From: Actinomyces radicidentis
GTDB taxonomy: Bacteria; Actinomycetota; Actinomycetes; Actinomycetales; Actinomycetaceae
DNA length: 64,000 nucleotides
Direction: 5' to 3'
Assembly (NCBI RefSeq): GCF_001553565.1
Contig: NZ_CP014228.1
Location: 992,001 to 1,056,000 of the forward strand
Shown here one piece after another: positions 19,104 to 49,558 of the stretch (the first letter of the stretch is position 1; the number at the start of each line of letters is the position of its first letter). The translations under genes were made by a program, and so were the position numbers. The notes below the pieces were generated by a model. It did no database searches. It saw only the letters and a list, made by a program, of their open reading frames with translations, and was not told the DNA's origin.

Positions 19104-19132
19104 GGCGGCCGGAGCCCCCGCACTCACCCCGT

Positions 19133-19208: not shown

Positions 19209-19224
19209 ACGCAGAACGGAGGGG

Positions 19225-31287: not shown

Positions 31288-32379
31288 TGTACTTCACCGG
31301 GAGGTTGTGAACGGTCGAGGTAGCGAGGACCTCCGGGCAGGATGTGGGTTACCGCACTCGCATCCTGACCACGGAGGTCCTCATGACTCACGCTAACGCG
31401 CCTTTGACGCCGGAGGGGCGTCGTCGCCTCGCTGTTCTCGTCGTCGATCAGGGCTGGTCCCTGCGGCGCGCCGCCGAACGGTTCCAGTGCTCGCCGGCGA
31501 CGGCGAAGCGGTGGGTGGACAGGTACCGGTCCGGGCTGGAGCTGACCGACCGAAGCTCGAGGCCGAGTTCCTCCCCAGGGCGACTGCCTCGCAGGACGGA
31601 GCACCGGATCATCGCGCTGCGGTTCACACGTCGGTGGGGTCCCCACCGGATCGCCTATCACCTGCGGCTGCACCGCTCCACGGTCGGACGGGTACTGGCC
31701 CGCTATCACATGCCGAAGCTGGCCAACATCGACCAGTCCACCGGGCTGCCAGTGCGCAAGCCGGCACCGCGGCGGTACGAGGTCGCTGCGCCCGGCCTGC
31801 TGGTGCACGTTGACGTCAAGAAGCAAGGCCGCATCCCCGACGGCGGCGGCTGGCGGGTCCACGGTCGCGGATCCGTCCAGGACCGCACCGCGGGCGCTGT
31901 GCGCGATCGAGCCGCCAGGGCAGGGGCGCCGGGCTCGCGCGGCTACCGGTACCTGCACCACGCCGTCGACGACTACTCCAGGGTCGCGTACTCCGAGATC
32001 CTCGACGACGAGCGCAAGGAGACCGCGGCCGCCTTCTGGCAACGAGCGAACGCGTTCTTCTCCGGCCTCGGCGTCACCGTCACCGCCGTGATGACGGACA
32101 ATGGCGCCTGCTACCGCTCGCGCGCCTTCGCTGATGCCCTCGGCCAGGCCGTCAAGCACAAGTGGACCAAGCCCTACCGGCCGCAGACCAACGGCAAGGT
32201 CGAGCGCTTCAACCGCACTCTCGCCGCCGAGTGGGCGTATGCCGCCGTCTACACCGACGAGGCAGAGCGAACCGCCGCCTACACGACCTGGCTGCACTAC
32301 TACAATCACCACCGACCCCACACCGGAATCGGCGGCCAGACCCCCTCAGACCGCGTTCACAACCTCACGGGGAAGTACA
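31288..32379 (+). mobile_element. IS481-family insertion sequence with 6-bp target duplication
   Basis: A 1,092-bp element. Its ends are inverted repeats starting TGTACTTC (left TGTACTTCACCGGGAGGTTG; right, on the minus strand, TGTACTTCCCCGTGAGGTTG), 24 of the first 26 bases matching. It is flanked by the direct repeat TCTAGG at 31282-31287 and 32380-32385. The target contained the TAG stop of the upstream gene, so that stop is preserved and a second TAG now terminates the transposase. Intact ends and an intact frame suggest a recent, possibly active copy. It marks the left border of the RiPP cluster. Confidence 0.9.
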
Positions 32380-32384
32380 TCTAG
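31383..32384 (+). CDS. IS481-family transposase
   Basis: A 333-residue DDE transposase. The N-terminus has a helix-turn-helix (LVVDQGWSLRRAAERFQCSP) and the core the acidic triad in GLLVHVDVKKQGRIPDGGGW, AVMTDNGACYRS and NGKVERFNRTLAAEWAY, all typical of IS481. ATG 31383 is preceded by GGAGGTCCTC. The stop codon TAG (32382-32384) is supplied by the right copy of the target duplication, outside the element proper. The frame is complete. Confidence 0.93.
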   Translation: MTHANAPLTPEGRRRLAVLVVDQGWSLRRAAERFQCSPATAKRWVDRYRSGLELTDRSSRPSSSPGRLPRRTEHRIIALRFTRRWGPHRIAYHLRLHRSTVGRVLARYHMPKLANIDQSTGLPVRKPAPRRYEVAAPGLLVHVDVKKQGRIPDGGGWRVHGRGSVQDRTAGAVRDRAARAGAPGSRGYRYLHHAVDDYSRVAYSEILDDERKETAAAFWQRANAFFSGLGVTVTAVMTDNGACYRSRAFADALGQAVKHKWTKPYRPQTNGKVERFNRTLAAEWAYAAVYTDEAERTAAYTTWLHYYNHHRPHTGIGGQTPSDRVHNLTGKYI

Positions 32385-32646: not shown

Positions 32647-32784
32647 ATGAACACCACGATCACCGAGCTCGAGACCCTGGAGGCGCCGGGCTGGCTGGAG
32701 TGGACGGTCGGCATCGGAGTCGGCGGCGTCGCCTCCGGCGGCCTCATCTACGGCGGCATCGCCATCGGCGTCGCCCTCACCTGA
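32647..32784 (+). CDS. Daptide-type RiPP precursor peptide 1
   Basis: A 45-residue peptide. The acidic leader (MNTTITELETLEAPG) ends near LEAPGW, and the core is a Gly/Val/Ile-rich hydrophobic helix ending GGIAIGVALT. The last 13 residues are nearly identical to those of precursor 2, including the C-terminal Thr, the residue that daptide enzymes convert to a dimethylated diamine. A good ribosome-binding site (AAAGGA) precedes ATG 32647. It is expressed first in the cluster. The class call depends on the neighbouring enzymes as much as on the peptide itself. The cleavage site is not visible; around APGW is my inference. Confidence 0.82.
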   Translation: MNTTITELETLEAPGWLEWTVGIGVGGVASGGLIYGGIAIGVALT

Positions 32785-32832
32785 GCCCCCGCCCCAGACC
32801 CTCATCCAAGCCACGCACGTCAGGAGACAACC

Positions 32833-33009
32833 ATGACCTCAACGCTCGACACCGACCTCGCCTTCGCCTCGATCATCGCGGACATCGAACCCCTCGAGTC
32901 CCTCGACGCCCCGTGGAACTGGGGCGAATTCTACGGCGGCGTCGCCATCGGGGTGGGCGCCGGCGGCGTCGTCGTCGGCGGCATCGCCGTCGGCGTCGCC
33001 CTCACCTGA
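32833..33009 (+). CDS. Daptide-type RiPP precursor peptide 2
   Basis: A 58-residue peptide with a longer acidic leader (MTSTLDTDLAFASIIADIEP, then LESLDAPW) and a core rich in Gly/Val (WGEFYGGVAIGVGAGGVVVG) ending GGIAVGVALT. The LExLxAPxxW junction and the C-terminal 13 residues match precursor 1, indicating duplication and shared processing. The core has no Cys and almost no Ser, and only the terminal Thr. AGGAGA precedes ATG 32833. A hydrophobic helical core with charged ends would suit membrane activity, as reported for daptides. Confidence 0.85.
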   Translation: MTSTLDTDLAFASIIADIEPLESLDAPWNWGEFYGGVAIGVGAGGVVVGGIAVGVALT

Positions 33010-33113
33010 GCGGCCACGGCATCGGGGTCGGCAGCCGCCGCACCGGCGGCTGCCGACCCCGCGGCCCACGAGCCGCGCCCCCACCCATCCCCCCCACGAT
33101 CTGGAGCACCACC

Positions 33114-33311
33114 ATGAACTCGACCACCACCAACCTGCTGCCCACCGTCCTGCTCAGCCTCACGGCCGTCCTGGGCGCCCTCACCGCGGTGCTCATCGCC
33201 GTCGGCACCGTCGGCCCGGCCGCCTACACCTGCCTCGGCCTCGCCGCCCTGTGCGCCCTCGGCGGCGGCATCGCCATCGGCCTCAACCGCTCCAAGCGGA
33301 CGCCTCGGTGA
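33114..33311 (+). CDS. Small two-helix membrane protein of the RiPP cluster (possible immunity)
   Basis: A 65-residue protein with two predicted membrane helices (NLLPTVLLSLTAVLGALTAV and AYTCLGLAALCALGGGIAIG) and a basic tail (NRSKRTPR). It is not a third precursor: there is no acidic leader and no C-terminal Thr. Its place between precursors and tailoring enzymes and its small membrane character suggest self-protection, which is inference. ATG 33114 has GGAG upstream. Its stop overlaps the GTG of the next gene by 4 bp, so the two are translationally coupled. Confidence 0.7.
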   Translation: MNSTTTNLLPTVLLSLTAVLGALTAVLIAVGTVGPAAYTCLGLAALCALGGGIAIGLNRSKRTPR

Positions 33312-34297
33312 CCACGTCGACCAGGACGTCGGGGGAGGGCGGCGGTCCGGGCGGCCTGGACCCGGACCGCGCCCTCGTCTCGGTGATCTGCCCCGCCTAC
33401 GACCGCGGGCCCGCCCTCACCCGCACGCTCGACTCCGTGCTCGGCCAGAGCCACGGCCGCCTCGAGCTCCTGGTCGGCGACGACGGATCCACCGACGACA
33501 CCCGCGAGGTCGTCCGCGCAGCCGCCTCCGAGGACCCTCGCGTCCGCCTCCTCGAGCTCGCCCACCACGGCGACCCCGGACCGGTGCGCGCACGACTCCT
33601 GGCCGAGGCGCGCGGGAGCGTCATCGCCTACGTCGACCACGACGACACCTGGTCCCCCGACCACCTGGCCCGCTCACTGGAGTCGCTGGCCGAGCTCCCG
33701 CCCAACACCGTCCACGTCGCGGGCGCCTCCTACACCGAACCGACCGGTGGGCACGCCCTGAGCCGGCACGGCGGCACGTGGGACCGGACCAGCACCGTCC
33801 TCGACCCCCTCTTCGAACCCACCCGCGTCGTCCACCGGGCCGGCCTCCTGCGAGGCCGAGACGGCTGGCGGCCCTCGTACGGGGGCATGGAGGACTGGGA
33901 CCTGTGGTGGCGGCTGTCAGGGCGGGGCACCCGCTTCCACCTCGACGACGCGGTCACCGTCACCATCCCCCTGGCCCCCACCACCCGGCGCAACCGCCTG
34001 CGATTCCTCCCCACCCTCACCCTCGCCACCGTGCCGGACCGAACCGAGGCGACCGAGGCCGTCGAGCGCTGGGCCCGAGCCCACGCGCAGCCCGGCACCG
34101 AGCTGCCCGCCTGGCTCAGCCTCCTCGCCCTGCCCACCCGCGAGGGCTGGACCCTCGGCTTCGGCGCACCCGTCGTCACACGCCGCCACGCCCAGGAGAT
34201 CCGCCGGCTCCTGCCCACCCGCCTCCCCCACCTCGTCGCCGAGGCGACCGAGACGCTCACCACCGTACCCGCACCGACCACACGCCCTGGAGCCTGA
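33308..34297 (+). CDS. Family 2 glycosyltransferase in the RiPP cluster
   Basis: A 329-residue GT-A fold enzyme. Near residue 20 it starts the GT2 pattern VSVICPAYDRGPALTRTLDS, with the nucleotide-binding VGDDGSTDDT, the metal-binding YVDHDDTWSPDHL (D-x-D region) and the acceptor-side GGMEDWDLWWRLS (the ED of the GT2 catalytic motif). It should transfer a sugar from a nucleotide-sugar donor. In this cluster the acceptor could be the peptide or a cell-envelope component; neither is shown. Starts at GTG 33308, overlapping the small membrane protein gene. Glycosyltransferases are not part of the known minimal daptide pathway. Confidence 0.85.
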   Translation: MTTSTRTSGEGGGPGGLDPDRALVSVICPAYDRGPALTRTLDSVLGQSHGRLELLVGDDGSTDDTREVVRAAASEDPRVRLLELAHHGDPGPVRARLLAEARGSVIAYVDHDDTWSPDHLARSLESLAELPPNTVHVAGASYTEPTGGHALSRHGGTWDRTSTVLDPLFEPTRVVHRAGLLRGRDGWRPSYGGMEDWDLWWRLSGRGTRFHLDDAVTVTIPLAPTTRRNRLRFLPTLTLATVPDRTEATEAVERWARAHAQPGTELPAWLSLLALPTREGWTLGFGAPVVTRRHAQEIRRLLPTRLPHLVAEATETLTTVPAPTTRPGA

Positions 34298-34302
34298 TCG
34301 CC

Positions 34303-35919
34303 ATGTCCGACACCACCGTCCTGCCCCCGCCCCTGCGCCTGCGCCCGGGCGTCGAGGTCATCCCTCCCCAGGCGGAGCGGACGCGCTGGATCGTGCGCGA
34401 CGCACGCGGCCGCCTCCTCCAGGTCGGCCCCGACCTGGGACCGCTCCTGCTCCTGCTCGCGGGCTCCCCGGGCGGACTCACCGCGCAGGAGCTCGCCGAC
34501 CGAGCCCGGGCCCCCTGGACCCCGCAGCTCGTGCGCGACGTCGCCGGAGCGCCTGCGCTCCACCAGCTGCTCACGGAGGACGGCACCGCCGACGCCGAGC
34601 AGCGCCCCCGGGCGCTCAGCGTGGACCACGACGGCGCCCTCGTCCTCAAGCTCTGCCTCAACCGGGTCGAACCCTTCTTCGCGGCCTGCCGCCCCGTGCT
34701 CGAGCGGCTCCGCCGCAGCCACGCGGGCTGGCTCGCCGTCCTCACGTCCCTGCTCGGCGTCCTCCCCCTCCTGCAGGCGATCGCCGACCCCCTCGGTCCC
34801 CTCTACCGGGTCATGCCCACGGGCTCCTACCTCGTGGTCGTCGTCGCCCTCCTCGCGACCACCGTCGTGCACGAGCTCGCCCACGGACTGACGCTCTCCG
34901 CCCTCGGGGGCCTCCCCCACCGCGTCGGCCTCATGGTGTTCTACCTCGCGCCCGCCGCCTTCTGCGACGTCACGGACGCCTGGCTGCTCCCGCGCCGCCA
35001 CCGCGTCGCCGTGGCCTCCGCCGGCGTCGTCGCCCAGACCTGCCTGGGCGCGGAAGCCCTCCTGGGCTCAGAGCTCACCGACGGCGCGGTCTCCGGCGTC
35101 CTCGCCTGGTACGGGGCGGCGACCTACCTCACCGCCCTCATCAACCTCCTGCCCCTCCTCAAGCTCGACGGCTACGTCGCCCTCGCCGGCTGGCTGGACC
35201 GCCCCAACCTGCGTCGCGACGCCATCGCCGCGACGCGCTCGCGCCTGGCCGGCGCGCCCGGCGCGGAGGGCGCCCCGCGATGGGTCCTCGCCCTCGGCCT
35301 GGGCTGCGTCCTCGCCCCCGTCGTCGCCGTGTGGGCGGGCCTCCTCGTCCTCCTGCCCCAGCTCCTCCGGCTCGGCCTGCCCGGCCTCGTGGTGGCGGTC
35401 GGCCTCGTCCTGGCCGCCGCGGCCTGCCTGCTGACCGGCGGGGCACGGGTGCTGCGCGAGCTCCCCGCGTCCAACCGTCGCCGGCTGGCGCTGGTCAGCA
35501 CCGCCCTCGTCGCCCTCACCCTCCTCGTACCCGTGTCCGCCTCCACCTCGATGGGCTTCGAGGTCCAGGACGACGGCACCGTGCTCGCCTACGGCAGCAC
35601 GGAGGTCATCGCCGCCTCCGGCGCGAGCGACGACGGCGCCGAGGTCGCGCTCCACCGGGCCGGCCTCCTCACCGGCCCGACCCTCACCGACGGGACCGTC
35701 ACGGGGACGCGCACCTGCTCCCTGCCCCGCCAGGCGGTCTCCCCCGTCCGCACAACCGGCACGCTGTCCCCGTCCCAGTGCCTGCTCATCGTCCCCGGCG
35801 CCGGCGCCGACCGGGCCCTCGCCTCCGGCACGACCGGCCGCGTCACCATCACCGGCCCCGCACGCCCGCTGGCCGTCCTGCTCCGCCAGCAAGCCGCTCT
35901 CGCCCTGTCCGCGCTCTGA
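34303..35919 (+). CDS. Intramembrane M50-family metalloprotease (daptide leader protease)
   Basis: A 538-residue polytopic protein. The N-terminal ~130 residues are soluble and resemble the winged-helix region seen in related peptide-maturation membrane proteins (LTAQELADRARAPWTPQLVR). The membrane part has the zinc motif HELAHG (His190-Glu191-xx-His194) and the third ligand in KLDGY (Asp289). A beta-rich domain outside the membrane (~400-520, GFEVQDDGTVLAYGSTEVI) follows. M50 proteases are standard in daptide clusters and would cleave the leader in the membrane. It starts 5 bp after the glycosyltransferase stop. Confidence 0.85.
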   Translation: MSDTTVLPPPLRLRPGVEVIPPQAERTRWIVRDARGRLLQVGPDLGPLLLLLAGSPGGLTAQELADRARAPWTPQLVRDVAGAPALHQLLTEDGTADAEQRPRALSVDHDGALVLKLCLNRVEPFFAACRPVLERLRRSHAGWLAVLTSLLGVLPLLQAIADPLGPLYRVMPTGSYLVVVVALLATTVVHELAHGLTLSALGGLPHRVGLMVFYLAPAAFCDVTDAWLLPRRHRVAVASAGVVAQTCLGAEALLGSELTDGAVSGVLAWYGAATYLTALINLLPLLKLDGYVALAGWLDRPNLRRDAIAATRSRLAGAPGAEGAPRWVLALGLGCVLAPVVAVWAGLLVLLPQLLRLGLPGLVVAVGLVLAAAACLLTGGARVLRELPASNRRRLALVSTALVALTLLVPVSASTSMGFEVQDDGTVLAYGSTEVIAASGASDDGAEVALHRAGLLTGPTLTDGTVTGTRTCSLPRQAVSPVRTTGTLSPSQCLLIVPGAGADRALASGTTGRVTITGPARPLAVLLRQQAALALSAL

Positions 35920-35975
35920 CAGCGCTCCGACAGCCCTCCGTCCGCACACCGACCCCACCACCACGAAGGACCACC

Positions 35976-36866
35976 ATGACCACCCCCTCCCCCGCGCTCT
36001 CCGACCTCCACGCCTTCCTCACCGGCGCCCCCACGAGCCGCCCCGTCGTCTGGGTCGCCGCCGGGCTGCGTCCCGCCCCCGACGACCTGCCCGAGGACGC
36101 CCTCGTCATCGCCGCCGAGGAGCTGGAGACCGCTCCCGGCCAGGAGCTCCTCCTGCGCGAGGGCGAGCTCGACGCCGACTGCGAGCAGATCGTCGTCGAC
36201 GACGCCCTCGAGATCAGCGTCATGGACTACGTCCTCGCCTCCTACCTGCCGTGCACCGGACCGACCCTCCTGCGCCTGGCCGGCGACGCCGACTGGGACG
36301 CCTTCCTCGAGGACGCCGACGACGCTGTCGCCACCGGCTACGTCCCGGACCACCTCCTCAGCCCCCTCGTCCTCCTCGAGGACGCCTGGCCCCTCGCCTC
36401 CGGCGACCTGCCCGCGGGCCGGTGCACCCTCACCGCCGACGGCGCCTCCCCCTGCCTGCCCGGCGCCCCGAGCCCCCTCGGGCGCGACACGGGCGGCCGG
36501 CCCTGGCTGCCCCGCTACCTCACCCTGGTCGCCGCCCTGCGCAGCGTGCGGACCCGGGACGCCCGCGACGTCGTCGTCTCCGGCCTGGGCGCCCGCCTCG
36601 GCGAGCACGCCCCCGCCGAGCTCACCGAGGACGCCCGCACGGCCGTCATCCTGCGCACCCAGGACGGCTACCGCTGCCTCCTGCCAGACACGGGGCGCTT
36701 CCTCAGCCTCCCCGAGCAGCTCGCCCTCCTCCTCGAGCTCGTCCTCACCCTCGGCCCGGACACCGAGACCCTCGCCGAGCGCACCGGCCTCTCACCCGAG
36801 CAGGTGCGCGCGGCGATGAGCGCCCTGGAGGAGGCGGGGATCCTCGGCCAGGCGGCGCTCGTCTGA
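35976..36866 (+). CDS. Daptide accessory protein with C-terminal RiPP-recognition (PqqD-like) domain
   Basis: A 296-residue soluble protein. The first ~200 residues belong to no enzyme family I recognise (VVWVAAGLRPAPDDLPEDAL, EISVMDYVLASYLPCTGP). Residues ~218-296 form a winged-helix RRE/PqqD-like domain (ILRTQDGYRCLLPDTGRFLS and LAERTGLSPEQVRAAMSALE). In the characterised daptide pathway an unannotated accessory protein with a C-terminal RRE delivers the precursor to the oxidative decarboxylase, and this architecture matches that role. GAAGGA precedes ATG 35976. A 25-bp hairpin ends this transcription unit. Confidence 0.82.
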   Translation: MTTPSPALSDLHAFLTGAPTSRPVVWVAAGLRPAPDDLPEDALVIAAEELETAPGQELLLREGELDADCEQIVVDDALEISVMDYVLASYLPCTGPTLLRLAGDADWDAFLEDADDAVATGYVPDHLLSPLVLLEDAWPLASGDLPAGRCTLTADGASPCLPGAPSPLGRDTGGRPWLPRYLTLVAALRSVRTRDARDVVVSGLGARLGEHAPAELTEDARTAVILRTQDGYRCLLPDTGRFLSLPEQLALLLELVLTLGPDTETLAERTGLSPEQVRAAMSALEEAGILGQAALV

Positions 36867-36876
36867 GAGCCCACGA

Positions 36877-36930
36877 GCGGAACGCGGGGCGGGGTGCACG
36901 GCTGACCGTGCACCCCGCCCCGCGTTCCGC
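36877..36930. terminator. 25-bp perfect hairpin between the precursor unit and the exporter unit
   Basis: Arms 36877-36901 and 36906-36930 pair perfectly around CTGA, 10 bp after the RRE gene. The outer part (GCGGAACG) is shared with the hairpin after pgm. It separates the precursor/protease genes from the exporter/tailoring genes. Confidence 0.8.
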
Positions 36931-36941
36931 CGCGGGAGCCT

Positions 36942-36972
36942 CCGACGTCCGGCGGGGCCTCGGCCGATCGGC
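36942..36972 (+). promoter_or_regulatory. Candidate regulator boxes upstream of the exporter-tailoring operon
   Basis: CCGAC at 36942 and the palindrome GCCGATCGGC at 36963-36972 are about 21-22 bp apart, matching the box layout upstream of precursor 1 and of the second methyltransferase. TTGAGT and TAGAGG occur near 37042-37051, but I cannot fix the promoter. Confidence 0.35.
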
Positions 36973-37092
36973 GGACCCGGGCGCCGTCGCCGGGCCCCGC
37001 ACGACTGACCCGGTCAGCGGATCCCACCCGGCCCGCCAGGACGTTGAGTAGAGGCACCCCCTCGAGAACCCCTCCACAGAAAGGACGGACCG

Positions 37093-37815
37093 GTGCCCAC
37101 TCTCATCGACATCGACCACGTCACCAAGCGGTTCCGCTCGACGACGGCCGTCGACGACGTCACCTTCTCCCTCCTGCCCGGCCAGGCCCTCGGGCTCCTC
37201 GGCCCCAACGGGGCCGGCAAGACCACCACGATGCGTCTCCTCCAGGGTGCGCTGCGCCCCAGCTCCGGCGAGATCACGATCGCCGGGCACCGCCCGCTCG
37301 AGGTCCCCCGGGTCGACCACGTCGTCGGCTTCGCCTTCGACGGCACCGGGCTCCCCGCGGGCCAGACCGTCGGGGACCACCTCGCCGCCCACCGTCTGAG
37401 CACCGGGGTCGGAGAGCGCCGCATGCGCTCCCTCATCGAGGAGTTCGACCTGGGCCGCCTCCTGCGCCGCCGCGTCAAGCAGCTGTCCACCGGCGAGCGC
37501 AAGCGCGTCAGCCTCGCCACGGCGATGACCGCCGAGCCCCAGGTCCTCGTCCTGGACGAGCCCACCAACGGCCTCGACATCGAGGGCGCCCACTGGATCC
37601 GCGAGGTCCTCCTCGGGCACGTCGCCTCGGGCGGCTCCCTGCTCGTCTCCAGCCACATCCTCTCCGAGATCGAGCGGGTCGTCGACAGCGTCGTCGTCAT
37701 CAAGCAGCACCAGGTCTTCAGCGGAACCCTCGACGAGCTCCGCCTCCACGGCTCCTCCCTCGAGGACGCCTACCTGTCCCTCGTCAGCCCGACCACCAGG
37801 AGCCTCGCAGCATGA
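37093..37815 (+). CDS. ABC exporter ATPase of the RiPP cluster
   Basis: A 240-residue nucleotide-binding subunit. Walker A is GPNGAGKT (37-44), the signature is LSTGERKRVS (~132), Walker B LVLDEP (~152) and the H-loop SSHILSE. It resembles drug/bacteriocin-type ABC-2 exporters (DrrA/CcmA-like). It probably exports the mature peptide and/or confers self-resistance. It starts at GTG 37093 with AAAGGACGG upstream. Its stop overlaps the permease start by 4 bp (ATGA). Confidence 0.9.
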   Translation: MPTLIDIDHVTKRFRSTTAVDDVTFSLLPGQALGLLGPNGAGKTTTMRLLQGALRPSSGEITIAGHRPLEVPRVDHVVGFAFDGTGLPAGQTVGDHLAAHRLSTGVGERRMRSLIEEFDLGRLLRRRVKQLSTGERKRVSLATAMTAEPQVLVLDEPTNGLDIEGAHWIREVLLGHVASGGSLLVSSHILSEIERVVDSVVVIKQHQVFSGTLDELRLHGSSLEDAYLSLVSPTTRSLAA

Positions 37816-38663
37816 GCACCACCGCAGCCACCCGTCCCGTCCCCGCCGCCCGGCGAAGCGCACGCCACCGCGCCGAGCCCGCCGCGCGCACGCGCCGAGC
37901 CCGCTCGACGGCCGGCACCCCGCACCCGCTCCTCAGCGTGCTCCGATCCGGCCTCACGGACCGCAGCTGGCTCGTGTTCCTCCTCGTCGGGGCGGTCCTC
38001 ACCACCATCTCCGCCCTCGGCAACGGCACGACCCTCCTCAAGGACGTCGCCGGCGCCGACCAGGCCGCCGTCGATGACGTCGCCCTCCGGATGACCCGCC
38101 TCGGCTTCGCCCTCCTCCTGTTCGTCTCCATGTGGAGCGCCACCCGGGTCACGAGCGACTTCCACGACGGGACCGTCACCGGCCAGGTCGCTCGCTACGG
38201 CGGCGTCGCCCGGCTCATGGCCCGCCAGGCGCTGGCCGCCCTGCCCGGGGGACTCGCCTTCGGTGTCGTCGGCGTCCTGACCGGCGCCGGGACGGCCGCG
38301 GTCATGCTCCACAGCAGGGGCCTCACGATGAGCCTGGACGAGAGCTTCTGGCGGACCGTCCTCGGCGTGGTCCTCGTGTCCGTCCTCGCGGCCCCGTGGG
38401 GCACCTGCTTCGGCTGGCTCCTGCGACGCACCGTGTCCACCGTGCTCGTCCTCGTCGCCTGGACCACCTTCATCGAGCCGGTGCTCATCACCTGGGTCCC
38501 CGTCCGCGTGGGCACCTGGATGCCCGGGAACCTCCAGACGCGCCTGTGCCTGGACCCGACCGTCGTCGGAGACGCCGGGGCCGTCGCCTCCGGAGCGGCC
38601 CTCGTCGGCTGGGTCCTCCTCCTGGGAGCCGTCACCGTGCTCGTGACCCGGAGGCGCGACCTC
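37812..38663 (+). CDS. ABC-2 exporter permease of the RiPP cluster; frame has no stop of its own
   Basis: Membrane partner of the preceding ATPase. After a basic tail (~45 residues) it has about six hydrophobic segments (WLVFLLVGAVLTTISALGNG, LGFALLLFVSMWSATRV, ALAALPGGLAFGVVGVLTGA, VVLVSVLAAPWGTCFGW, GAALVGWVLLLGAVTVLV) and then TRRRDL, the usual C-terminal end of such permeases, at 38663. No stop codon follows. The same frame stays open through the overlapping methyltransferase gene and joins the aminotransferase frame to its stop at 40748. I give the end where homology-like sequence ends. A lost stop, a small frameshift or a true read-through fusion are all possible. Automatic gene finders may miss this gene. 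Confidence 0.75.
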
Positions 38664-38664
38664 C

Positions 38665-39414
38665 ATGGCTGGCACCGCCCTCGCGAGCCTGTACACCGGC
38701 GCCGGAGCCCAGCACTACCACGACCTCTGCCTCCACGACACGACCGAGGTCCAGGACGTCCTCGAGGCCCTCGCCGAGATCGACGACCCGGCCCTGGACG
38801 ACCTCAGGGTGCTGGAGATGGCCAGCGGCTCGGGCCGGGTCACCCTCCCGATGGCGGCCGCCGGGCACCGCGTCCTGGCCACCGACCTGAGCGAGGACAT
38901 GCTGGACATCCTCCGGTCGCGCCTGACCGAGCGGGCCGCGCTCCACGCCGGCATCGCCCAGCGCGTCGAGGTGCGCTGCGCGGACATGACGACCTTCACG
39001 GCGCAGGAGCGGTTCAGGGCCGTGTGCCTGCCGACCGTCTCCATCACGCTCCTGCGCGCCGAGCAGCAGCGCCGTGCGCTCGAGCGCGCGGCCCACCACC
39101 TCGCCCCCGGCGGCCGCCTCGTCCTGTCCACGACGACCGTCTCCCCGCAGGCGCCCACGAGCATCACGACCGCCCTCGGCGACGGCGTCAGCCTCACCGA
39201 GGAGGTCGACCGCGCACGCGGCACCCGTCGGACGGTCCTCACCTGGGGCGGGGAGACCTTCGTCAGCGAGCTCCACCTCGCCCCCGCCCCCCGCATCACC
39301 GTCCAGCTCACCGCGCTGGGCCTGGAGATCCTGTCCCAGCGCCCCACCCGCGGGACGCCCCTGTCCGGCCACGGCAGCGTCCTCATCGTCGCCGAGCGCC
39401 CCCGCGGGCTCTGA
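38665..39414 (+). CDS. Daptide-type SAM-dependent N-methyltransferase 1
   Basis: A 249-residue class I methyltransferase. SAM motif I is VLEMASGSGRVTLPMAAAGH, the post-I acidic strand is LATDLSEDML, and motif II/III follow in RCADMTTF and LAPGGRLVLSTTTVS. In the daptide pathway a methyltransferase dimethylates the amine installed at the modified C-terminus, and this gene's position directly before the aminotransferase fits. The C-terminal halves of this protein and of 43079-43798 are clearly paralogous (EEVDRARGTRRTVLT versus EVVDPARGLRRAVLT). GGAGG precedes ATG 38665. It overlaps the open frame running on from the permease. Confidence 0.88.
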   Translation: MAGTALASLYTGAGAQHYHDLCLHDTTEVQDVLEALAEIDDPALDDLRVLEMASGSGRVTLPMAAAGHRVLATDLSEDMLDILRSRLTERAALHAGIAQRVEVRCADMTTFTAQERFRAVCLPTVSITLLRAEQQRRALERAAHHLAPGGRLVLSTTTVSPQAPTSITTALGDGVSLTEEVDRARGTRRTVLTWGGETFVSELHLAPAPRITVQLTALGLEILSQRPTRGTPLSGHGSVLIVAERPRGL

Positions 39415-39458
39415 CCCGCGCCCCCACCTCATCCCCCCCCTCTCGAGAAAGCCCCGTC

Positions 39459-40748
39459 ATGGCCACCGCAGACAGGACCGCCCCCACCGCCCGGGCACCG
39501 CGGGCCGCCCGCCCCACCACCCAGTTCTTCGTCCCGCCCTCCGCCTTCTCCACGACGCCGTACCCCGTCGCGGCCCACGGCACCCGGATCCGCTACGCGG
39601 ACGGCAGCGAGGCCCTCGACGGCATCTCCGGCCTGTGGAACGTCCCCCTCGGCTACGGTCACACGGGCGTCGCCGACGCCGTCCACACGGCCCTCCTCGA
39701 GGCCTCCTACCTCACGAGCTTCCGCGGCAGCCACGCCTGGGCGGACCGCGCCAGCCGCGCCGTCCTCGAGGTCGCCGGCACCGACCGCTACGACCGGGTC
39801 CTCCACACCACCTCCGGCTCGGCCGCCCTGGACAGCGTCATCAAGCTGTGCCGCCAGTACCAGCTCCTGCGGGGCGAGCCCTCGCGCCAGGTCCTCGTCA
39901 CCCTCAAGGGCTCCTACCACGGAACCACCATGGGGGCGATGGCCCTCACCGGCGACGACCTGTGCCAGAGCGCCTACGGCGTCGACCTGCGCACCGTCCG
40001 CCACGTCGACCACCGCCGCCCCCGCGACCTGGCACGGCTCCTCGAGCGGGAGAGCGAGCGCGTCGCCGCCGTCGTCATCGAGCCCGTGCAGGGCTCCGGG
40101 ACGCACGTCGTCGGCCGGGACTTCCTCGAGCAGGTCCTCGCCGGCCGGCGCGAGCACGGCTACCTCGTCGTCGCCGACGAGGTGGCCACCGGCTTCGGTC
40201 GCACCGGCCCCATGTTCGCCTCGGAGCGGTGGCCGGAGGCCCCCGACGTCCTCGCGTCCTCCAAGGGGCTGACCAACGGCACCCAGGCCGCCTCCGTCGT
40301 CCTCCTCTCCCCGAAGGTCACCCGCGTCCTCGACGAGGCCGACTCCCCCGTCATGCACGGGGAGACGCAGGCGGGGTCCCCCGCCTCCTGCGCCGCGATC
40401 CTCGCCACCATCGAGGCCTTCCGCTCCGAGGACGTCCTGCGTCGCGGCGAGCGCGTCGCCGCCCAGCTCGACGCCCGCCTCCGCGAGCTGGCCGACGCCG
40501 TCCCCGGGGCGCGCACCACGGGGGCCGGCTGCTTCCGCTCGCTCACGGTGCCGGGCCTCGACGCCGCCGGCGTCACCGAGCTCATCACCCGCTGCCGGGC
40601 CGCCGGCGCCGTGGTCCAGCCGGGTCCCAGCTCCTTCCAGGTCGTGCCGGCCCTGGTCTACGAGGAGGCGGACCTCGACCTCCTCATGGACCGCGTCCAC
40701 CAGGCCGTCACCGAGGTCCTCGGCCTCAGGGCGGTGAGCGCGGCATGA
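39459..40748 (+). CDS. Daptide-type class III PLP aminotransferase
   Basis: A 429-residue fold-type I class III aminotransferase. Recognisable elements are GISGLWNVPLGYGHTGVADA, YHGTTMGAMALTGDD, the cofactor Asp in VADEVATGFGRTG and the PLP lysine in SSKGLTNGTQAA. In daptides this enzyme aminates the ketone left after oxidative decarboxylation of the C-terminal Thr. ATG 39459 is 44 bp after the methyltransferase stop with AGAAAG as a weak ribosome-binding site. It shares its reading frame with the permease and ends in an ATGA overlap with the dehydrogenase gene. Confidence 0.9.
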   Translation: MATADRTAPTARAPRAARPTTQFFVPPSAFSTTPYPVAAHGTRIRYADGSEALDGISGLWNVPLGYGHTGVADAVHTALLEASYLTSFRGSHAWADRASRAVLEVAGTDRYDRVLHTTSGSAALDSVIKLCRQYQLLRGEPSRQVLVTLKGSYHGTTMGAMALTGDDLCQSAYGVDLRTVRHVDHRRPRDLARLLERESERVAAVVIEPVQGSGTHVVGRDFLEQVLAGRREHGYLVVADEVATGFGRTGPMFASERWPEAPDVLASSKGLTNGTQAASVVLLSPKVTRVLDEADSPVMHGETQAGSPASCAAILATIEAFRSEDVLRRGERVAAQLDARLRELADAVPGARTTGAGCFRSLTVPGLDAAGVTELITRCRAAGAVVQPGPSSFQVVPALVYEEADLDLLMDRVHQAVTEVLGLRAVSAA

Positions 40749-41884
40749 GCGCGCCCGCGGCTCCGCCGGTCCTCCTGCCTCCCGCCTCCGGCCTCTGCGT
40801 CGGCCCCTGGGCCTCCTGCCTGACCCGGCGACCCGAGCTCGTCCTCGTCGACGACGCCGTCCGCGAGGACGTCGCCTCCGCGCTCCCCGCCGGCGCGAGG
40901 GTCGTCGCCGTCCACGGCACCGCCGACCTCCCGACGGTCCGCTCCACCGCCGAGGCGATCGAGAAGCAGGACCCCTCCGGCGTCCTGGCGGTGGGCGGCG
41001 GCGCCACGATGGACCTGGCGAAGCTCGCCCTCCTCCTCGCCGAGCACCCCGGGACCGCCCCACGGATCGAGCGCACCTCCCAGCGCTGCGGCCTCGTCAG
41101 CCTGGGGCGCCTGCCCCGACGCCGGCACCTCACCCTCGTCCCCACGACGACCGGGACCGGGTCCGAGTCGAGCGCGGGCGCCTGCTTCGACCACCCCTGG
41201 GGCGCCGACGGCGAACGGGCCCGCAGCCTCGTCGCCTCTCCGGCCCTCGCCGCCGACCACGCCGTCATCGACCCGGCCCTCCTCACCACCCTGCCCGACC
41301 GGCTCGTCATCGAGGGGCTCGTCGAGGCCCTCAGCCGGGTCCTGGCCCCCGCGGTCACGACCCCCAGCGCCCTGGAGCCCTGCGAGTGGGAGGCCGAGGC
41401 CCTGGCCGCGCACCTCCTCGCGCTGCTCGACCGGCTGCGCTCGGGCCGCTGCCCCACCGAGGAGCTGTTACGGGCGGCCGCGCTCGCCTCCTCCCTCACC
41501 CACCGCGGCTCCTCGCTCGCCGGGCGGGGAAGCGCCCCCTCCCCCGTGTGGTTCGTCGCCACCGAGCTGTCCATGGTGCTGGGGACGAGGAAGAACGTCG
41601 CCCTCGCCGCCCTGCTCGAGCAATGGGTGGCGCTGGTCCGCGCCGGGCACGAGGAGTGGGGGGATGCGGAGCGCCTCAACCGGCTCCTCCCCTCGGCCTC
41701 CCTCGACCTGGGCGGGCTCGGCCTGCCGACGGCGCTCGACGCTCCCCCGCACGCCCTGGAGCGGACCACCGACCGCCTGCGCGCCCGCTGGGGCGGGAGG
41801 CTGCCCATGATGGGGCGCTTCGCCCCCGAGCAGCTGGATCGCCTCCTCGCCCCGGTCCTCGGGGAGGCGGGGAGCCGTGACTGA
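40745..41884 (+). CDS. Iron-ADH-family oxidoreductase (daptide oxidative decarboxylase) lacking the usual metal ligands
   Basis: A 379-residue protein of the group III alcohol dehydrogenase/GldA fold. Nucleotide-binding GVLAVGGGATMDLAKLA and PTTTGTGSESSAGACF are intact. In daptides the matching enzyme oxidises the C-terminal Thr, which then loses CO2. By eye-alignment with FucO, the four metal-ligand positions (Asp and His of GMDALTHAIE, His of HGMAHPL, His of PHGVANA) read Glu, Arg, Trp and Lys here (LVEALSRV, VWFVATEL, TRKNVALA). It may therefore work without Fe or Zn, or bind metal differently. The start overlaps the aminotransferase stop by 4 bp. Confidence 0.85.
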   Translation: MSAPAAPPVLLPPASGLCVGPWASCLTRRPELVLVDDAVREDVASALPAGARVVAVHGTADLPTVRSTAEAIEKQDPSGVLAVGGGATMDLAKLALLLAEHPGTAPRIERTSQRCGLVSLGRLPRRRHLTLVPTTTGTGSESSAGACFDHPWGADGERARSLVASPALAADHAVIDPALLTTLPDRLVIEGLVEALSRVLAPAVTTPSALEPCEWEAEALAAHLLALLDRLRSGRCPTEELLRAAALASSLTHRGSSLAGRGSAPSPVWFVATELSMVLGTRKNVALAALLEQWVALVRAGHEEWGDAERLNRLLPSASLDLGGLGLPTALDAPPHALERTTDRLRARWGGRLPMMGRFAPEQLDRLLAPVLGEAGSRD

Positions 41885-42965
41885 CTCGACGGCACCGGTC
41901 CGCGCGGGGGCCGGCGGTCCCGGGCTCCGAGAGGAGGCCGACCCGGCCGCGGTCCTCGACCCGCGCAACGGGATGGTCTCCGCCCCGCTGCTCCTGCCGC
42001 CCGCCGCCGGACAGAGGCTCCTGTGGTCGCTCGGGGCGCTCCCCCTCGACCGCGCGGACACCGGGGACTGCGTCCTTAGCCCGAGCACCCCGGGCGGTGT
42101 CCCTTTCCGGTCGGACGGGGCCGGGGCCTGCGGCCCCACGCGCCGCGACGTCGTCGTGCGCGCCGCGGGCGAGATCGTCGAGCGCTGGGCGGTCGCGGCC
42201 CAGGAGCGCGCCGGCGCGCCGCTCCTCTTCCCCGACGCCGGCCCCTCCGGCGCCGCCGCGGGCCCCACCGCGGACTTCTGCCGCGCCCGCGGGCTGCGCG
42301 AGCTCCTCGAGCGCGACGCCGCCATGCGCGGGTGGTACGCACCCGGGTCGGTGAGGCTGCTCGACCCCGCCGAGAGCCTGCTCCGGCTGGGGTCGATGAC
42401 ACGTGTCCTCGAGCGCCTCGCGGACGCCGACGTGGAGCTGGTGCCGGTCCTCCTGCCGTCACGGTGCACGAGCACCGTGGTCACCATGTACGCGCTCCTC
42501 GACGTCCCGCGCGAGATCGTCGCCTGCGGCCTGGGGTGCGACGCGGACCTGGAGGCCGCGCTGCGCACCGCCTCGCGCGAGGCCTGCCAGGTCCACGACT
42601 TCTACACCGGCATGCGGCGGAGCGTCGGCCGGCCTTCGGCGCCGGGCGCGGTGCGCAGCGAGACCGACCGGGCACGGTGGTGGGGCGCGGACGGCAACGT
42701 GGAGGCCTTCCGCCGGTGGCTGGCGGCCGTCGCGGACGCCGATGGCGCCGAGGACCTCCCCGCGGTCCCCTGGCGCGACCTCGAGGCGGGCACCCGCTTC
42801 ACCGACCTCACCGGCTCCCTGCCCGACGCCGTCGCAGCGGCCGGGTGGCACGCCGGGCGGGTCGAGCACCCCGGTCTCGTGCCCCTCATCACGGACGAGA
42901 CCGGCGACACCGGCCGGCGGCTGTCGCGCGGCGGCGCGCACGGGCTGCCACATCCCGTCATCTGA
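41877..42965 (+). CDS. YcaO-domain protein in the daptide-type cluster
   Basis: A 362-residue YcaO-fold protein, the ATP-using enzyme class that activates peptide backbone amides to make azolines, thioamides or amidines. Signatures: opening LDPRNGMVSAPLLLPP, the GxGxxxxxAxxxAxxEAIER-type stretch GAGACGPTRRDVVVRAAGEI then VERWA (the ExxER ATP/Mg site), GLRELLERDAAMRGWY (second acidic motif) and GLGCDADLEAALRTASREAC. The C-terminus GLPHPVI recalls the Pro-rich YcaO ends. No E1-like/ocin-ThiF or TfuA partner is present. It starts at GTG 41877, overlapping the dehydrogenase by 8 bp, so it belongs to the same operon. I know of no required YcaO step in daptide maturation. Confidence 0.85.
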   Translation: MTDSTAPVRAGAGGPGLREEADPAAVLDPRNGMVSAPLLLPPAAGQRLLWSLGALPLDRADTGDCVLSPSTPGGVPFRSDGAGACGPTRRDVVVRAAGEIVERWAVAAQERAGAPLLFPDAGPSGAAAGPTADFCRARGLRELLERDAAMRGWYAPGSVRLLDPAESLLRLGSMTRVLERLADADVELVPVLLPSRCTSTVVTMYALLDVPREIVACGLGCDADLEAALRTASREACQVHDFYTGMRRSVGRPSAPGAVRSETDRARWWGADGNVEAFRRWLAAVADADGAEDLPAVPWRDLEAGTRFTDLTGSLPDAVAAAGWHAGRVEHPGLVPLITDETGDTGRRLSRGGAHGLPHPVI

Positions 42966-42975
42966 GTGCGGACGG

Positions 42976-43012
42976 CCGAGCATCGGCCGATCGAGTGACC
43001 CGATGGGCCGAT
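42976..43012 (+). promoter_or_regulatory. Candidate regulator boxes upstream of the second methyltransferase
   Basis: In the 113-bp gap after the YcaO gene, CCGATCGA begins at 42987 and CCGATCCG at 43008 (21 bp apart), with further CCGAG (42976) and CCGAT (43000). CGGCCGATCG is shared with the box at 36962-36971. The AGGAGAGGAGG further on is the ribosome-binding site of the next gene. Confidence 0.4.
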
Positions 43013-43078
43013 CCGCACCGGCCCGAACCGTCCGAAGGTGGAGCAAGGAGAGTCCCACCAGCCAGGAGAGGAGGCACC

Positions 43079-43798
43079 GTGCGCGACGAGTCGAGCCGGC
43101 CGCTCTTCGTCCACGGGCGCGCGCCGTCCGAGGCCCCGCCCGCTGAGATCCGCTCCGTCCTGGAGGTCGTGGCGGTCCTGCGGGCCGACCCGGCGCTCCG
43201 GGTCCTGGAGATCGGGAGCGGTCGCGGGGGCGTGACCCTGGCCCTGGCCCGCGCGGGCGCGCGGGTGCTCGCCGTCGAGCCGGACCCGCTCGGCGCGGCG
43301 GCCCTCCGGGGCGTGCTGGAGGCCGCCGGGCCGGGGGCCTCGCAGGGGGTCGAGGTCCTCGTGGACGGGCCGTGCGGCCTCGCCCTGACCGAGCGCTTCC
43401 GCGCGGTCGTCCTCCCCGCGGCCGGGCTGACCCGTCTGGCCCGTCCCGAGCAGCTCGACCTCCTGGAGGAGGCCTCCGCCCTCCTCGCACCGGGCGGGTC
43501 GCTCATCGTCTCCACCGAGCACGTCACCCTCACCCGGGCGCGGACCACCACCGTGGACCTCGACGACGGCGGGCGCTACACGGAGGTCGTCGACCCGGCG
43601 CGCGGGCTGCGCCGCGCGGTCCTGACCGGATCGGGACCGCGCACCGTCCAGGAGGTCCACTCGGCCCCTCCCGCCTGGATCAGCGCCCGTCTGCGGGCGC
43701 TGGGCCTGGAGGTCGACTACCAGCACTCGGTCCCCGACCCCGTTCTCCGCGGTCACGCCGCCGTCGTCATCGCCGCGACCGCCCCTGCTCGCCGCTGA
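43079..43798 (+). CDS. Second SAM-dependent methyltransferase, paralogue of methyltransferase 1
   Basis: A 239-residue class I methyltransferase. Motif I is VLEIGSGRGGVTLALARAGA, post-I LAVEPDPLGAA, and motif III LLAPGGSLIVSTEHVT. The C-terminal half aligns with methyltransferase 1 (EVVDPARGLRRAVLT, EVHSAPPAWISARLRALGLE, GHAAVVIAA). It lacks the first ~25 residues of methyltransferase 1. It starts at GTG 43079 with GGAGG 5 bp upstream. Possible roles are the second N-methylation, methylation of a YcaO-made group, or modification of the other end of the peptide; sequence does not decide. Confidence 0.85.
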   Translation: MRDESSRPLFVHGRAPSEAPPAEIRSVLEVVAVLRADPALRVLEIGSGRGGVTLALARAGARVLAVEPDPLGAAALRGVLEAAGPGASQGVEVLVDGPCGLALTERFRAVVLPAAGLTRLARPEQLDLLEEASALLAPGGSLIVSTEHVTLTRARTTTVDLDDGGRYTEVVDPARGLRRAVLTGSGPRTVQEVHSAPPAWISARLRALGLEVDYQHSVPDPVLRGHAAVVIAATAPARR

Positions 43799-43951
43799 CC
43801 GGCTCCGGCCGGGCCCTTCGGCCCACCGTCCCCGGGTCGACGAGCGGCATGCTGCGTGCGCGCGGTCCCCGAGGCCCTTCTGCGCCCTTCCGCGCGTACC
43901 GCGTCGGCTAGGGTCGACGTCGTCAGGCACGGCCACGGGTGAGGGGCAACC

Positions 43952-45217
43952 ATGAGGCGGTTCGCGCTGCGCGCGGGACGGCACGGCGCACGGACCGCCG
44001 ACCGCCCGGCCGTCGGCACCCGCATCCCCGTGTCCATCGCGGAGGCCTTCGCTCGGCGACGCACCCTCGTCGCCATCGCCGTGGTCTTCGCGACGGCGAA
44101 CATCCTCATCAACGGGGTCCTCCCGCCCGCTGTACCACTCGCCGACTGGTCCTTCGTCCTCGTCGCCGGCGTCCTCCTCGTCCTCCTCCCCTTCCGGCCC
44201 CTGGCCACGAGCGTCGCCTACGCGCTGACCTGGGTGCTCCTGCTCATCCACCCCACGGCCTACGCGAGCGACCTCCTCGTCACGACCTTCCTCTTCTGCT
44301 TCCTCACCGTCTTCCTCCTGCTCAGGCCGCTCGGGGTGCTCATCGGCACCTCCCCCTTCTGGACGAGCGCCGTAACGGTCCTCGCCGGCGGCAGCCCCAC
44401 CAACAGCGACGTCAACACGCTGTTCATCACGGGCATCACCTGCGGCGTCATGGTGCCCCTGGGCCTCATCGTGTGCGAGCTCGACGTACAGCGGCGCGCC
44501 GCCTCCGACACGCTCGAGTCGCTGCGGCTCGAGATCGCGCGCGAGATGCACGACCTCGTCGCGTACTCCATGTCGCAGACGGCGCTGCGCGCCCAGCGGG
44601 CCTCCCTCGACGAGCGGTACTCCCCGGAGGCGCGCCAGGAGTTCGCGGCCCTGGAGGCGACGGCCTCGGACGCCCTCCATGAGCTCCGGCTCCTGCTGCG
44701 CACCCTGCGGCACTCCACGCCCGACCTGTACCAGGACGTCTCCACGACGACCGGCCTGGGAGGGGGCACCACCGCCCTGCCCGTCGCCGTCCAGGCGATC
44801 GCCGACGACGTCGCCGCCGCCGGCTTCGACGTGACCTACCGGTGCGTCGGCCAGGCCGAGCCCTCGATGCTCCAGGCGAGCACCCTGTCACGGGTGGCGC
44901 GCGAGATGGGAGCGAACATCATGCGGCACGGCGACGCCGGCGGCCCGGTCACGATGACCCTCTCCCTCGGTCCGACGTCGCTCTGGCTGGTCAGCACCAA
45001 CAGCATCGCCCGGAGCACCTCCCCGCTCCCGCGATCGGGCACCGGCACGCTCGGGATGCGGGAGCGCCTCAACGCCATCCAGGGGACCCTGACGACCCTG
45101 GCGGACGAGGACTCCTGGATCTGCACGGCGACCGTCCCCCTGTCCACCCACCAGCTCGGGGCGGCTGCCGTCGCGGCAGACGCTCCTCCTCCCGACCCTG
45201 CAACGGAGAAGCCATGA
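43952..45217 (+). CDS. Sensor histidine kinase (NarL/LuxR-type system)
   Basis: A 421-residue membrane sensor. About five hydrophobic segments (residues ~35-175, e.g. TLVAIAVVFATANILINGVL) are followed by a HisKA_3 dimerisation domain with phospho-acceptor His200 (ARE-MHDLVAYSMS) and a HATPase_c domain whose N-box reads REMGANIMRH and G-box GTGTLGMRERLN. It pairs with the LuxR-type regulator encoded next (4-bp overlap) and probably controls the RiPP cluster. The signal is unknown; a multi-TM sensor without an extracellular loop domain suits a membrane or hydrophobic peptide signal. TAGGGT upstream (near 43910) may be a -10. Confidence 0.9.
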   Translation: MRRFALRAGRHGARTADRPAVGTRIPVSIAEAFARRRTLVAIAVVFATANILINGVLPPAVPLADWSFVLVAGVLLVLLPFRPLATSVAYALTWVLLLIHPTAYASDLLVTTFLFCFLTVFLLLRPLGVLIGTSPFWTSAVTVLAGGSPTNSDVNTLFITGITCGVMVPLGLIVCELDVQRRAASDTLESLRLEIAREMHDLVAYSMSQTALRAQRASLDERYSPEARQEFAALEATASDALHELRLLLRTLRHSTPDLYQDVSTTTGLGGGTTALPVAVQAIADDVAAAGFDVTYRCVGQAEPSMLQASTLSRVAREMGANIMRHGDAGGPVTMTLSLGPTSLWLVSTNSIARSTSPLPRSGTGTLGMRERLNAIQGTLTTLADEDSWICTATVPLSTHQLGAAAVAADAPPPDPATEKP

Positions 45218-45897
45218 TCCACGTCGGCATCGCGGACGACGACGCGCTCGTCCGCCACACCCTCACCGACCTCCTCGCCACGACCGACGACATCCGTGTG
45301 GCGTGGACCGCGTCCGACGGCCTCGAGGCCCTGGAGCACCTGCGCGACCCCGAGCGCGAGGAGGTCACGGTCCTCCTCGTCGACGTCCAGATGCCCCGGC
45401 TCGACGGGATCGCCCTGGCGGAGGCCCTCCACGAGGAGATGCCGGACATCGCGATCCTCATCCTCACGACCTTCGTCGCGGACTCGGTCCTCGACCGGGC
45501 TCTGGCCGCCGGCGTGCGCGGCTTCATCGCGAAGGAGGACCCCATCGGCACGCTCGCCGACACGATCCGGCACGTCGCCTCCGGGAACATGGTCCTGTCC
45601 CCCGCGTCCTCCGCCATCATCGGGCACCGTGTCCCGCCCGCCCTCGCCCCGTCGCCCGCGGCTCCAGTGCGGTCCGCTCCCGCTGCGGGCGCCCTCCCGC
45701 CCGCCGTGGCGCTCTCACCGAGGGAGCTCGAGGTCCTCAGCCTCATGGTCGAGGCGCTGTCCAACAAGCAGATCGCCAAGCGGCTCAACCTCTCCGAAGC
45801 GACCGTCAAGACCCACGTGTCCACGCTCATCGCCAAGCTCGGGGTCCAGGACCGTGTCGGCGCGGTCGTCCACGCGCTGCGCACCGGGCTGGTCTAA
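45214..45897 (+). CDS. LuxR/NarL-type response regulator
   Basis: A 227-residue regulator. The receiver domain has the acid pair Asp8/Asp9, phospho-acceptor Asp57 (LLVDVQMPRLDG) and the conserved Lys in GFIAKED. A ~30-residue Ala/Pro linker joins it to a LuxR-type HTH (LSPRELEVLSLMVEALSNKQ, IAKRLNLSEATVKTHVSTLI). LuxR-type regulators bind dyad sites, and the CCGATCG boxes in front of the cluster's units are the obvious candidates. Starts within the kinase stop (ATGA overlap). Confidence 0.93.
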   Translation: MIHVGIADDDALVRHTLTDLLATTDDIRVAWTASDGLEALEHLRDPEREEVTVLLVDVQMPRLDGIALAEALHEEMPDIAILILTTFVADSVLDRALAAGVRGFIAKEDPIGTLADTIRHVASGNMVLSPASSAIIGHRVPPALAPSPAAPVRSAPAAGALPPAVALSPRELEVLSLMVEALSNKQIAKRLNLSEATVKTHVSTLIAKLGVQDRVGAVVHALRTGLV

Positions 45898-47190: not shown

Positions 47191-47307
47191 GCGTCCTCCT
47201 CGGGCGGTTCCGGTCGGTAGCCTATGACCCGGGCCATGCCTCACGAGGGCTGCCCACGGCCAGCTGCGCGACGGCGCGCGGCGCCGACCACCGCACGAGG
47301 AGACCCC

Positions 47308-48378: not shown

Positions 48379-48379
48379 C

Positions 48380-49558
<1,179 letters not shown>

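Follow-up and report, generated by a model that had tools for sequence, protein, structure and literature searches.

A gene cluster in the Actinomyces radicidentis window analysed here (the whole stretch of 64,000 nucleotides, positions 992001-1056000 of C1, the single contig of a 3.05-Mb genome with a GC content of ~73%) appears to encode a two-peptide daptide system, in which the known C-terminal chemistry of the class would be combined with one predicted new step, the glycosylation of a tyrosine; we give this reading a probability of about 0.6. Daptides are small bacterial peptides in which a basic group replaces the acidic C-terminal end. Judged by its profile matches, the locus is a daptide cluster, namely a variant of the known class that carries YcaO and GT2 glycosyltransferase genes. 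The GT2 enzyme likely O-glycosylates one Tyr in the daptide core, which here would be Tyr35 of precursor A1. The association between GT2 and Tyr described below is new and suggests a Tyr glycosylation step, of which no description was found for the class.

The preliminary description of this DNA had recognized a daptide cluster from two Thr-terminated precursors, an RRE-fusion accessory protein, an M50 protease and a methyltransferase-aminotransferase-dehydrogenase trio. A search against the daptide profile models bears out this assignment, because the NCBIfam daptide models for DapP, DapB, DapM and DapD were all matched over their cut-offs. Both precursors lie where they had been placed, combine an ELExMEAP-like leader with an aliphatic core and end in Thr, and the precursor model NF041808 (cut-off 25 bits) is exceeded by A2 (26.1) and narrowly missed by A1 (22.4). 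The RRE protein is DapB (NF041823, 240.1 bits against a cut-off of 150), and the protease is DapP, whose match to Pfam M50 itself reaches only 15.8 bits, under the Pfam cut-off, despite a daptide_HExxH score of 359.7 against 300. Within the trio, DapM (195.0 against 175) and DapD (494.8 against 450) exceed their cut-offs, whereas DapC was recognized below cut-off, with NF041822 as its best family (208.7 against 300). DapC retains 29 of 34 columns whose conservation reaches 90% or more across 96 DapC proteins, and the DapC of an Arthrobacter locus, L097, likewise falls under the NF041822 cut-off (168.6). Five curated daptide models over cut-off, and a sixth matched below it, are thus found in a single same-strand run of 9 kb, and such a co-location is far above chance. 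Of 347 genomes of the order searched for DapB-RRE, 12 gave a match (11 over cut-off), and the window's genome did so at one place; a second daptide locus was sought elsewhere in its 3.05 Mb and none was found.

The comparison set was assembled from several sources. The DapD alignment provided 80 named loci (the best 80 of 159, with nearer kin favoured), searches of complete genomes across the order contributed 11 more (six of them clusters already named), and further genome searches gave 27 loci of the genus and 21 of the family to which the exceptional locus L031 (see below) belongs; no additional cluster was fetched from a phylum-wide draw of 396 genomes. Fourteen of 119 loci (window included) were removed as non-daptide or too cut, among them the contig-cut L036, in which Tyr is present and the GT2 state is not known, and L202 was removed from the 21 later loci as its DapD was not found. 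Two of the 125 loci left (L086 and L103) have no precursor, and merging of the remaining 123 at a DapD identity of 95% left 97 clusters. Precursors were collected with a heuristic of our own, including a filter for odd open reading frames (ORFs), by which small ORFs may be missed or added. Sixty-six clusters in which dapM precedes dapD, and in which gene order is therefore comparable, form what we call the M-before-D set. This set omits the window, L205 and L076, whose DapD frames start far upstream and were misread by the automatic rule; the window and L205 have GT2 and Tyr, and L076 has neither. Among the 97 clusters, 40 contain YcaO, 33 contain GT2 and 11 contain both, and the combination seen in the window is therefore not unique. 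One Streptomyces locus (L140, the same cluster as L054) carries two daptide-linked GT2 genes (2069-3388 and 18437-19642) in addition to a YcaO gene.

The idea of a Tyr target arose from a side-by-side reading of the precursors, in which those of GT2 clusters displayed a Tyr ~9-14 residues from the C-terminus. Within the 17 residues before the final Thr, Tyr occurs in all 33 clusters with GT2 and in 16 of the 64 without it (P = 5e-14). The corresponding numbers are 31/31 versus 2/35 in the M-before-D set (P = 1.6e-16) and 10/10 versus 1/15 (P = 3.4e-6) in the clusters fetched after the idea had arisen, which include close kin of earlier ones (the L147 precursors are those of L030). In the M-before-D set, changing the stretch from 12 to 25 residues left the count at 31/31 throughout with GT2 and at 2 to 4 of 35 without it, omission of seven GT2-free clusters with short flanks gave 31/31 versus 1/28, and merging at 75% identity gave 13/13 versus 0/13, both exceptions vanishing in this case only by falling in with GT2 clusters. 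Fourteen of the 31 GT2 clusters have one Tyr-bearing precursor and 17 have two. The association is confined to this part of the precursor: Tyr in the leader (2/31 versus 2/35) and Tyr in the first half of the core (6/31 versus 2/35, P = 0.13) are not linked to GT2. For none of the remaining 19 residues does an enrichment in GT2 clusters reach P < 0.05, while Phe (6/31 versus 22/35), Trp and, slightly, Thr are depleted at that level. Ser and Thr were considered as GT2 targets and set aside, since neither is enriched (Ser, 28/31 versus 32/35; Thr, 23/31 versus 33/35). Among the loci whose neighbours were scanned, L030, L031 and L194 encode a luciferase-like monooxygenase, joined in L031 by a RamC/LanKC protein, so that Ser has another likely fate there. 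In L097 and the Pseudarthrobacter locus L096, Ser, Thr and Cys in the cores are limited to the final Thr, which is consumed by the daptide enzymes, and the cores hold one Tyr in all. The DHDD and ED motifs, which we take to be the catalytic motifs of GT2, are intact in the window's enzyme and invariant in 14 aligned members. Cacaoidin, with an O-glycosylated Tyr and two GT2 genes in its cluster (PMC8068269), offers a precedent for the proposed step. A functional link between GT2 and Tyr is thus likely from this co-occurrence.

Several observations weigh against this reading. The sister loci L031 and L194, as well as L017 (counted outside the M-before-D set), have the Tyr without GT2 in the locus, and a genome-wide search at E 1e-10 found no GT2 of the daptide-linked family for any of the three. 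The same search matched four genomes known to hold GT2 clusters at E 4e-46 or better, so that the three loci are real exceptions, reflecting either loss of GT2 or another use of the Tyr. In L031 and L194, a gene for a luciferase-like monooxygenase lies upstream of dapB. Outside the M-before-D set, 14 of the 29 GT2-free clusters carry Tyr (L017 and mostly clusters of the Microbacterium type), and hence Tyr has other roles. Hydrolysis would also release a sugar from Tyr, and recovery of Tyr as a free amino acid therefore says little about its state in a peptide. For Microbacterium paraoxydans, such recovery, as the (S) amino acid, is reported in the accessible part of PMC10036551. The DapD tree implies at least 10 changes in GT2 and 12 in Tyr, but well-supported independent pairs differing in GT2 number only four; Tyr accompanies GT2 in 3.5 of these and opposes it in none (sign test, p = 0.125). 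With so few independent contrasts, hitch-hiking within lineages is a possible explanation. No sugar-nucleotide gene was seen among the genes of the cluster. In addition, the low score of DapC together with an exporter permease frame lacking a stop codon (see below) means that the locus may be impaired or the assembly locally wrong.

The scarcity of independent contrasts and the three exceptions would also fit a daptide cluster in which GT2 acts on Trp, Asn, the N-terminus or a cell-envelope target for self-protection, with Tyr merely co-inherited in one lineage. The GT2 domain has its relatives among GT2 enzymes acting on polysaccharides and glycans, its nearest solved structures and family names being mostly those of polysaccharide enzymes (TuaG and chondroitin synthase), and tryptophan N-glycosylation is known from NAI-112 (PMC8068269, accessible part). 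However, GT2-bearing clusters span Streptomyces, Frankia, Cryobacterium, Arthrobacter and the window's genome and not one of the 33 is without Tyr, no other residue shows a comparable enrichment, and among greedily chosen nearest pairs with and without GT2, which include unsupported branches and may overlap, Tyr differs in 9 of 10. We therefore regard a target other than Tyr as possible but rather unlikely.

The integrity of the locus bears on a further explanation, that of a decaying, horizontally acquired cluster flanked by an IS481-like element and giving no export or no product. No stop codon closes the DapT2 frame at the point where seven aligned homologues end, and the frame runs on across the methyltransferase gene as far as that of the aminotransferase (37812-40748); a transposase gene adjoins the cluster, DapC is below its cut-off, and a DapB-RRE search found no daptide locus in the five other congeneric genomes listed. 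The stopless frame reflects either an error of assembly or a genuine defect. Against decay, DapP, DapB, DapM, DapD, DapC, DapY and GT2 are all encoded by open frames, whose retention of family-conserved columns ranges from 20/26 to 99/110, and the similarly low score of the L097 DapC indicates that such a score need not mean decay. Taken together, decay appears very unlikely.

The preferred reading, a functional daptide cluster with Tyr glycosylation, would proceed as follows. DapB (RRE) would present A1 and A2, DapC would catalyse the oxidative decarboxylation of the C-terminal Thr to an aminoacetone, DapD would transaminate this product and DapM would add one methyl group. DapY would then cyclodehydrate the mono-methyl amine onto the Leu carbonyl, yielding a 3,4-dimethylimidazoline (Diz), or, if DapM acts twice, the end would be Dmp. 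GT2 would transfer a sugar onto the phenol of A1 Tyr35, DapP would cleave after ELETLEAP and PLESLDAP, the ABC exporter would release the peptides, and the two-component system would provide regulation. The DapB, C, D, M and Y steps are assigned through family membership, their reconstitution having been published for other species; DapP cleavage after ELExxxxx and ABC export are likewise carried over from what has been shown elsewhere, and the Tyr step is deduced from co-occurrence. With core boundaries set by the ELExxxxx rule of PMC12338566, the predicted core of A1, which has the leader motif ELETLEAP, extends from G15 to T45 (31 aa) and that of A2 from W28 to T58; both end in Leu-Thr. Tyr35 of A1 (codon 32749-32751) is the 11th residue counted from the C-terminus, and the only Ser, Thr or Cys in the A2 core is the final Thr. 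The calculated monoisotopic masses are 2942.590 for the A1 core, 2893.622 for its predicted Diz form and 3055.674 for Diz with a hexose, and 2931.528 for the A2 core and 2882.559 for its Diz form; the shifts from the core would be -48.97 for Diz and -16.94 for Dmp.

According to the accessible part of PMC12338566, daptide YcaO enzymes have been reconstituted and convert a C-terminal Leu-Thr, together with the methyltransferase, to a dimethylimidazoline; DapY closes the Diz ring after Dap formation and one methylation, and the mono-methyl amine is the only route to Diz. Because both cores in the window end in Leu-Thr like these substrates and DapY is conserved, an imidazoline end is expected here. 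The masses proposed earlier, those of Dmp (about -17) with a further -18, are accordingly replaced by that of Diz (about -49 Da), for which the mono-methyl amine is the expected intermediate. DapY retains 41 of the 52 conserved columns of 38 daptide YcaOs, including a C-terminal PHP, but does not show the complete PxPxP of PMC12338566 in that form. A profile built from YcaOs linked to daptides matches DapY at 353 bits, with the DapY sequence itself among the profile seeds. That the products are plain Dmp daptides, with YcaO, GT2 and M2 vestigial or minor, would be in line with the production of both Diz and Dmp by Streptomyces azureus from one cluster (PMC12338566) and with the departure of DapY from the family at 11 of the 52 columns. 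Yet the conserved Glu, Arg and Asp columns and the PHP end are kept, the DapY frame is intact and the GT2 motifs are unimpaired, which makes this alternative improbable. A link between YcaO and a penultimate Leu, Ile or Val was also considered (35 of 40 YcaO clusters versus 25 of 57 others, P = 1.4e-5) and was dropped as a lineage effect, since of nine independent pairs 0.3 were concordant and 0.3 opposed.

The second METHYLTRANSFERASE, M2, shares 43% identity with the DapM of the same cluster and scores 69.8 bits with NF041820, under the cut-off of 175. Two DapM-family ORFs were found only in the window, among 126 loci with such an ORF, and no match to M2 at E 1e-12 was obtained in 148 other genomes of the order. 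M2 keeps 13 of the 26 conserved DapM columns (20 in the window's DapM). It retains the glycines of the S-adenosylmethionine motif and lacks an N-terminal Tyr-Gly-Tyr, an Arg and an Asp, all of which are invariant in 95 other DapM proteins and kept in the window's DapM; a role as a second ordinary DapM was rejected for the absence of this N-terminal motif. M2 thus looks like a local duplicate of DapM with lost or changed activity, and may either act as a partner holding DapM to a single methylation or methylate a different site itself. A more elaborate version of the proposal, which is speculative and which we consider quite doubtful, is a third axis of daptide modification in which GT2 glycosylates one Tyr in the hydrophobic stretch of one partner only, which would make the peptide pair asymmetric, with imidazoline ends, while a diverged, perhaps inactive M2 pairs with DapM and stops it at the mono-methyl stage for DapY.

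The genes of the cluster all lie on the plus strand, from an IS481-like transposase gene (31344-32384) to position 45897 (Table 1). The YcaO protein, GT2, second methyltransferase, small membrane protein and two-component system listed in the preliminary description were all found where it had put them; the ABC exporter, a hairpin and the transposase had not been mentioned.

Table 1. Features of the daptide cluster, with coordinates in the window.
Feature	Position	Strand	Evidence
DapA1 precursor, 45 aa	32647-32784	+	NF041808, 22.4 bits (cut-off 25)
DapA2 precursor, 58 aa	32833-33009	+	NF041808, 26.1 bits (cut-off 25)
Small hydrophobic protein, 65 aa	33114-33311	+	Sequence
GT2 glycosyltransferase	33308-34297	+	Pfam GT2, 89 bits; member of daptide-linked GT2 family
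DapP intramembrane metalloprotease, M50-type (predicted leader removal)	34303-35919	+	NF041824 daptide_HExxH, 359.7 bits (cut-off 300)
DapB, RRE accessory protein of oxidative decarboxylase	35976-36866	+	NF041823, 240.1 bits (cut-off 150)
Perfect 25-bp hairpin	36877-36930	+	Between dapB and dapT1
DapT1, ABC exporter ATPase	37093-37815	+	Pfam ABC_tran, 100.9 bits; homologues in 74/90 loci
DapT2, ABC exporter permease	37812 to about 38676	+	Alignment with seven homologues
DapM, predicted N-methyltransferase of C-terminal amine	38665-39414	+	NF041820, 195.0 bits (cut-off 175)
DapD aminotransferase	39459-40748	+	NF041821, 494.8 bits (cut-off 450)
DapC dehydrogenase (oxidative decarboxylase), divergent	40745-41884	+	NF041822, 208.7 bits (below cut-off 300)
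DapY, YcaO, predicted imidazoline closure	41877-42965	+	PF02624, 56.9 bits (cut-off 25.7)
M2, second methyltransferase	43079-43798	+	Diverged in-cluster copy of DapM
Sensor histidine kinase, HisKA_3 type	43952-45217	+	Pfam HisKA_3, 41.8 bits
LuxR-type response regulator	45214-45897	+	Pfam Response_reg, 69.1 bits; GerE, 68.1 bits

The small hydrophobic protein probably has two membrane helices, judged by eye. It has no Pfam or NCBIfam match and no phmmer match among the ORFs of at least 50 aa in 90 other loci, and is possibly an immunity protein. The hairpin, which is GC-rich and has no T-run, divides the precursor-side genes from those for the exporter and modifying enzymes and may perhaps act as a terminator, an attenuator or an mRNA-stability element; the 91-nt stretch folds at -79.7 kcal/mol (z = -10.3; 0 of 200 shuffles). 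No sigma-70-type promoter was found within the cluster, which says little for the host organism. Adjoining the transposase gene and the cluster is a gene (28293-31286) for a 997-aa protein with a membrane region of the lysylphosphatidylglycerol-synthase type. Proteins of this type can protect against cationic peptides, and a part in self-protection is conceivable. Genes for a metal-sensing repressor and a heavy-metal P-type ATPase (24373-28221) lie just upstream and probably represent unrelated metal resistance, and a zinc alcohol dehydrogenase gene followed by one for a class I/II aminotransferase-fold enzyme (47224-49558) is probably a threonine-degradation pair.

The preliminary description had also expected modifications not described for the class, and this expectation holds in part. 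The secondary genes of daptide clusters named in 2023 comprise those for YcaO, LanKC/LanJC, glycosyltransferases and nucleotidyltransferases, and a second methyltransferase was mentioned in a hominicin-like cluster (PMC10036551), while the role of YcaO has since been explained (PMC12338566). For the target residue of GT2 and the role of the diverged M2, no description was found in the literature searched. The accessible part of PMC10036551 gives no glycosylated product or site for the daptide glycosyltransferases, and no paper on glycosylated daptides was found in literature searches whose coverage leaves out most subscription papers. For an enzyme so far without a place, encoded in 33 of the 97 daptide clusters compared, this gives a precise prediction, of one residue and one mass shift in many species, and the window offers a compact case, with two peptides and few hydroxyls. 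If true, the prediction would add glycosylation to the daptide class and a family of bacterial peptide-tyrosine glycosyltransferases to the enzyme toolbox, and an asymmetric pair would bear on how membrane-active peptides work jointly.

Among known systems, the azuritide cluster of S. azureus (saDap) and the T. fusca cluster (tfDap), as presented in the accessible part of PMC12338566, have DapA, B, C, D, M, P, T1 and T2 as well as DapY in common with the window, and their characterized substrate likewise ends in Leu-Thr, in line with the dimethylimidazoline expected here. Unlike for the window, neither a glycosyltransferase nor a DapM paralogue is part of their description there, and tfDap has LanKC and a luciferase-like enzyme, neither of which was seen among the genes of the window's cluster. 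The mpa cluster of M. paraoxydans (PMC10036551, accessible part) shares the DapB, C, D and M core and hydrophobic, Thr-ending cores with the window, but has three precursors and, having been chosen by its authors for primary modifying enzymes only, no YcaO or GT2. The nearest precursors found to those of the window are from L097 (Arthrobacter) and L096 (Pseudarthrobacter), where the same two precursor types and GT2, DapP, B, M, D, C and Y occur in one run; these loci differ from the window in having no M2, in the location of GT2 after DapP and in cores free of Ser and Thr except for the final Thr. Cacaoidin (PMC8068269, accessible part), a lanthidin, belongs to a different class of ribosomally synthesized and post-translationally modified peptides (RiPPs), with three glycosyltransferases (two GT2 genes) and a disaccharide; it shares with the window the presence of GT2 enzymes in a RiPP cluster, and its product contains an O-glycosylated Tyr.

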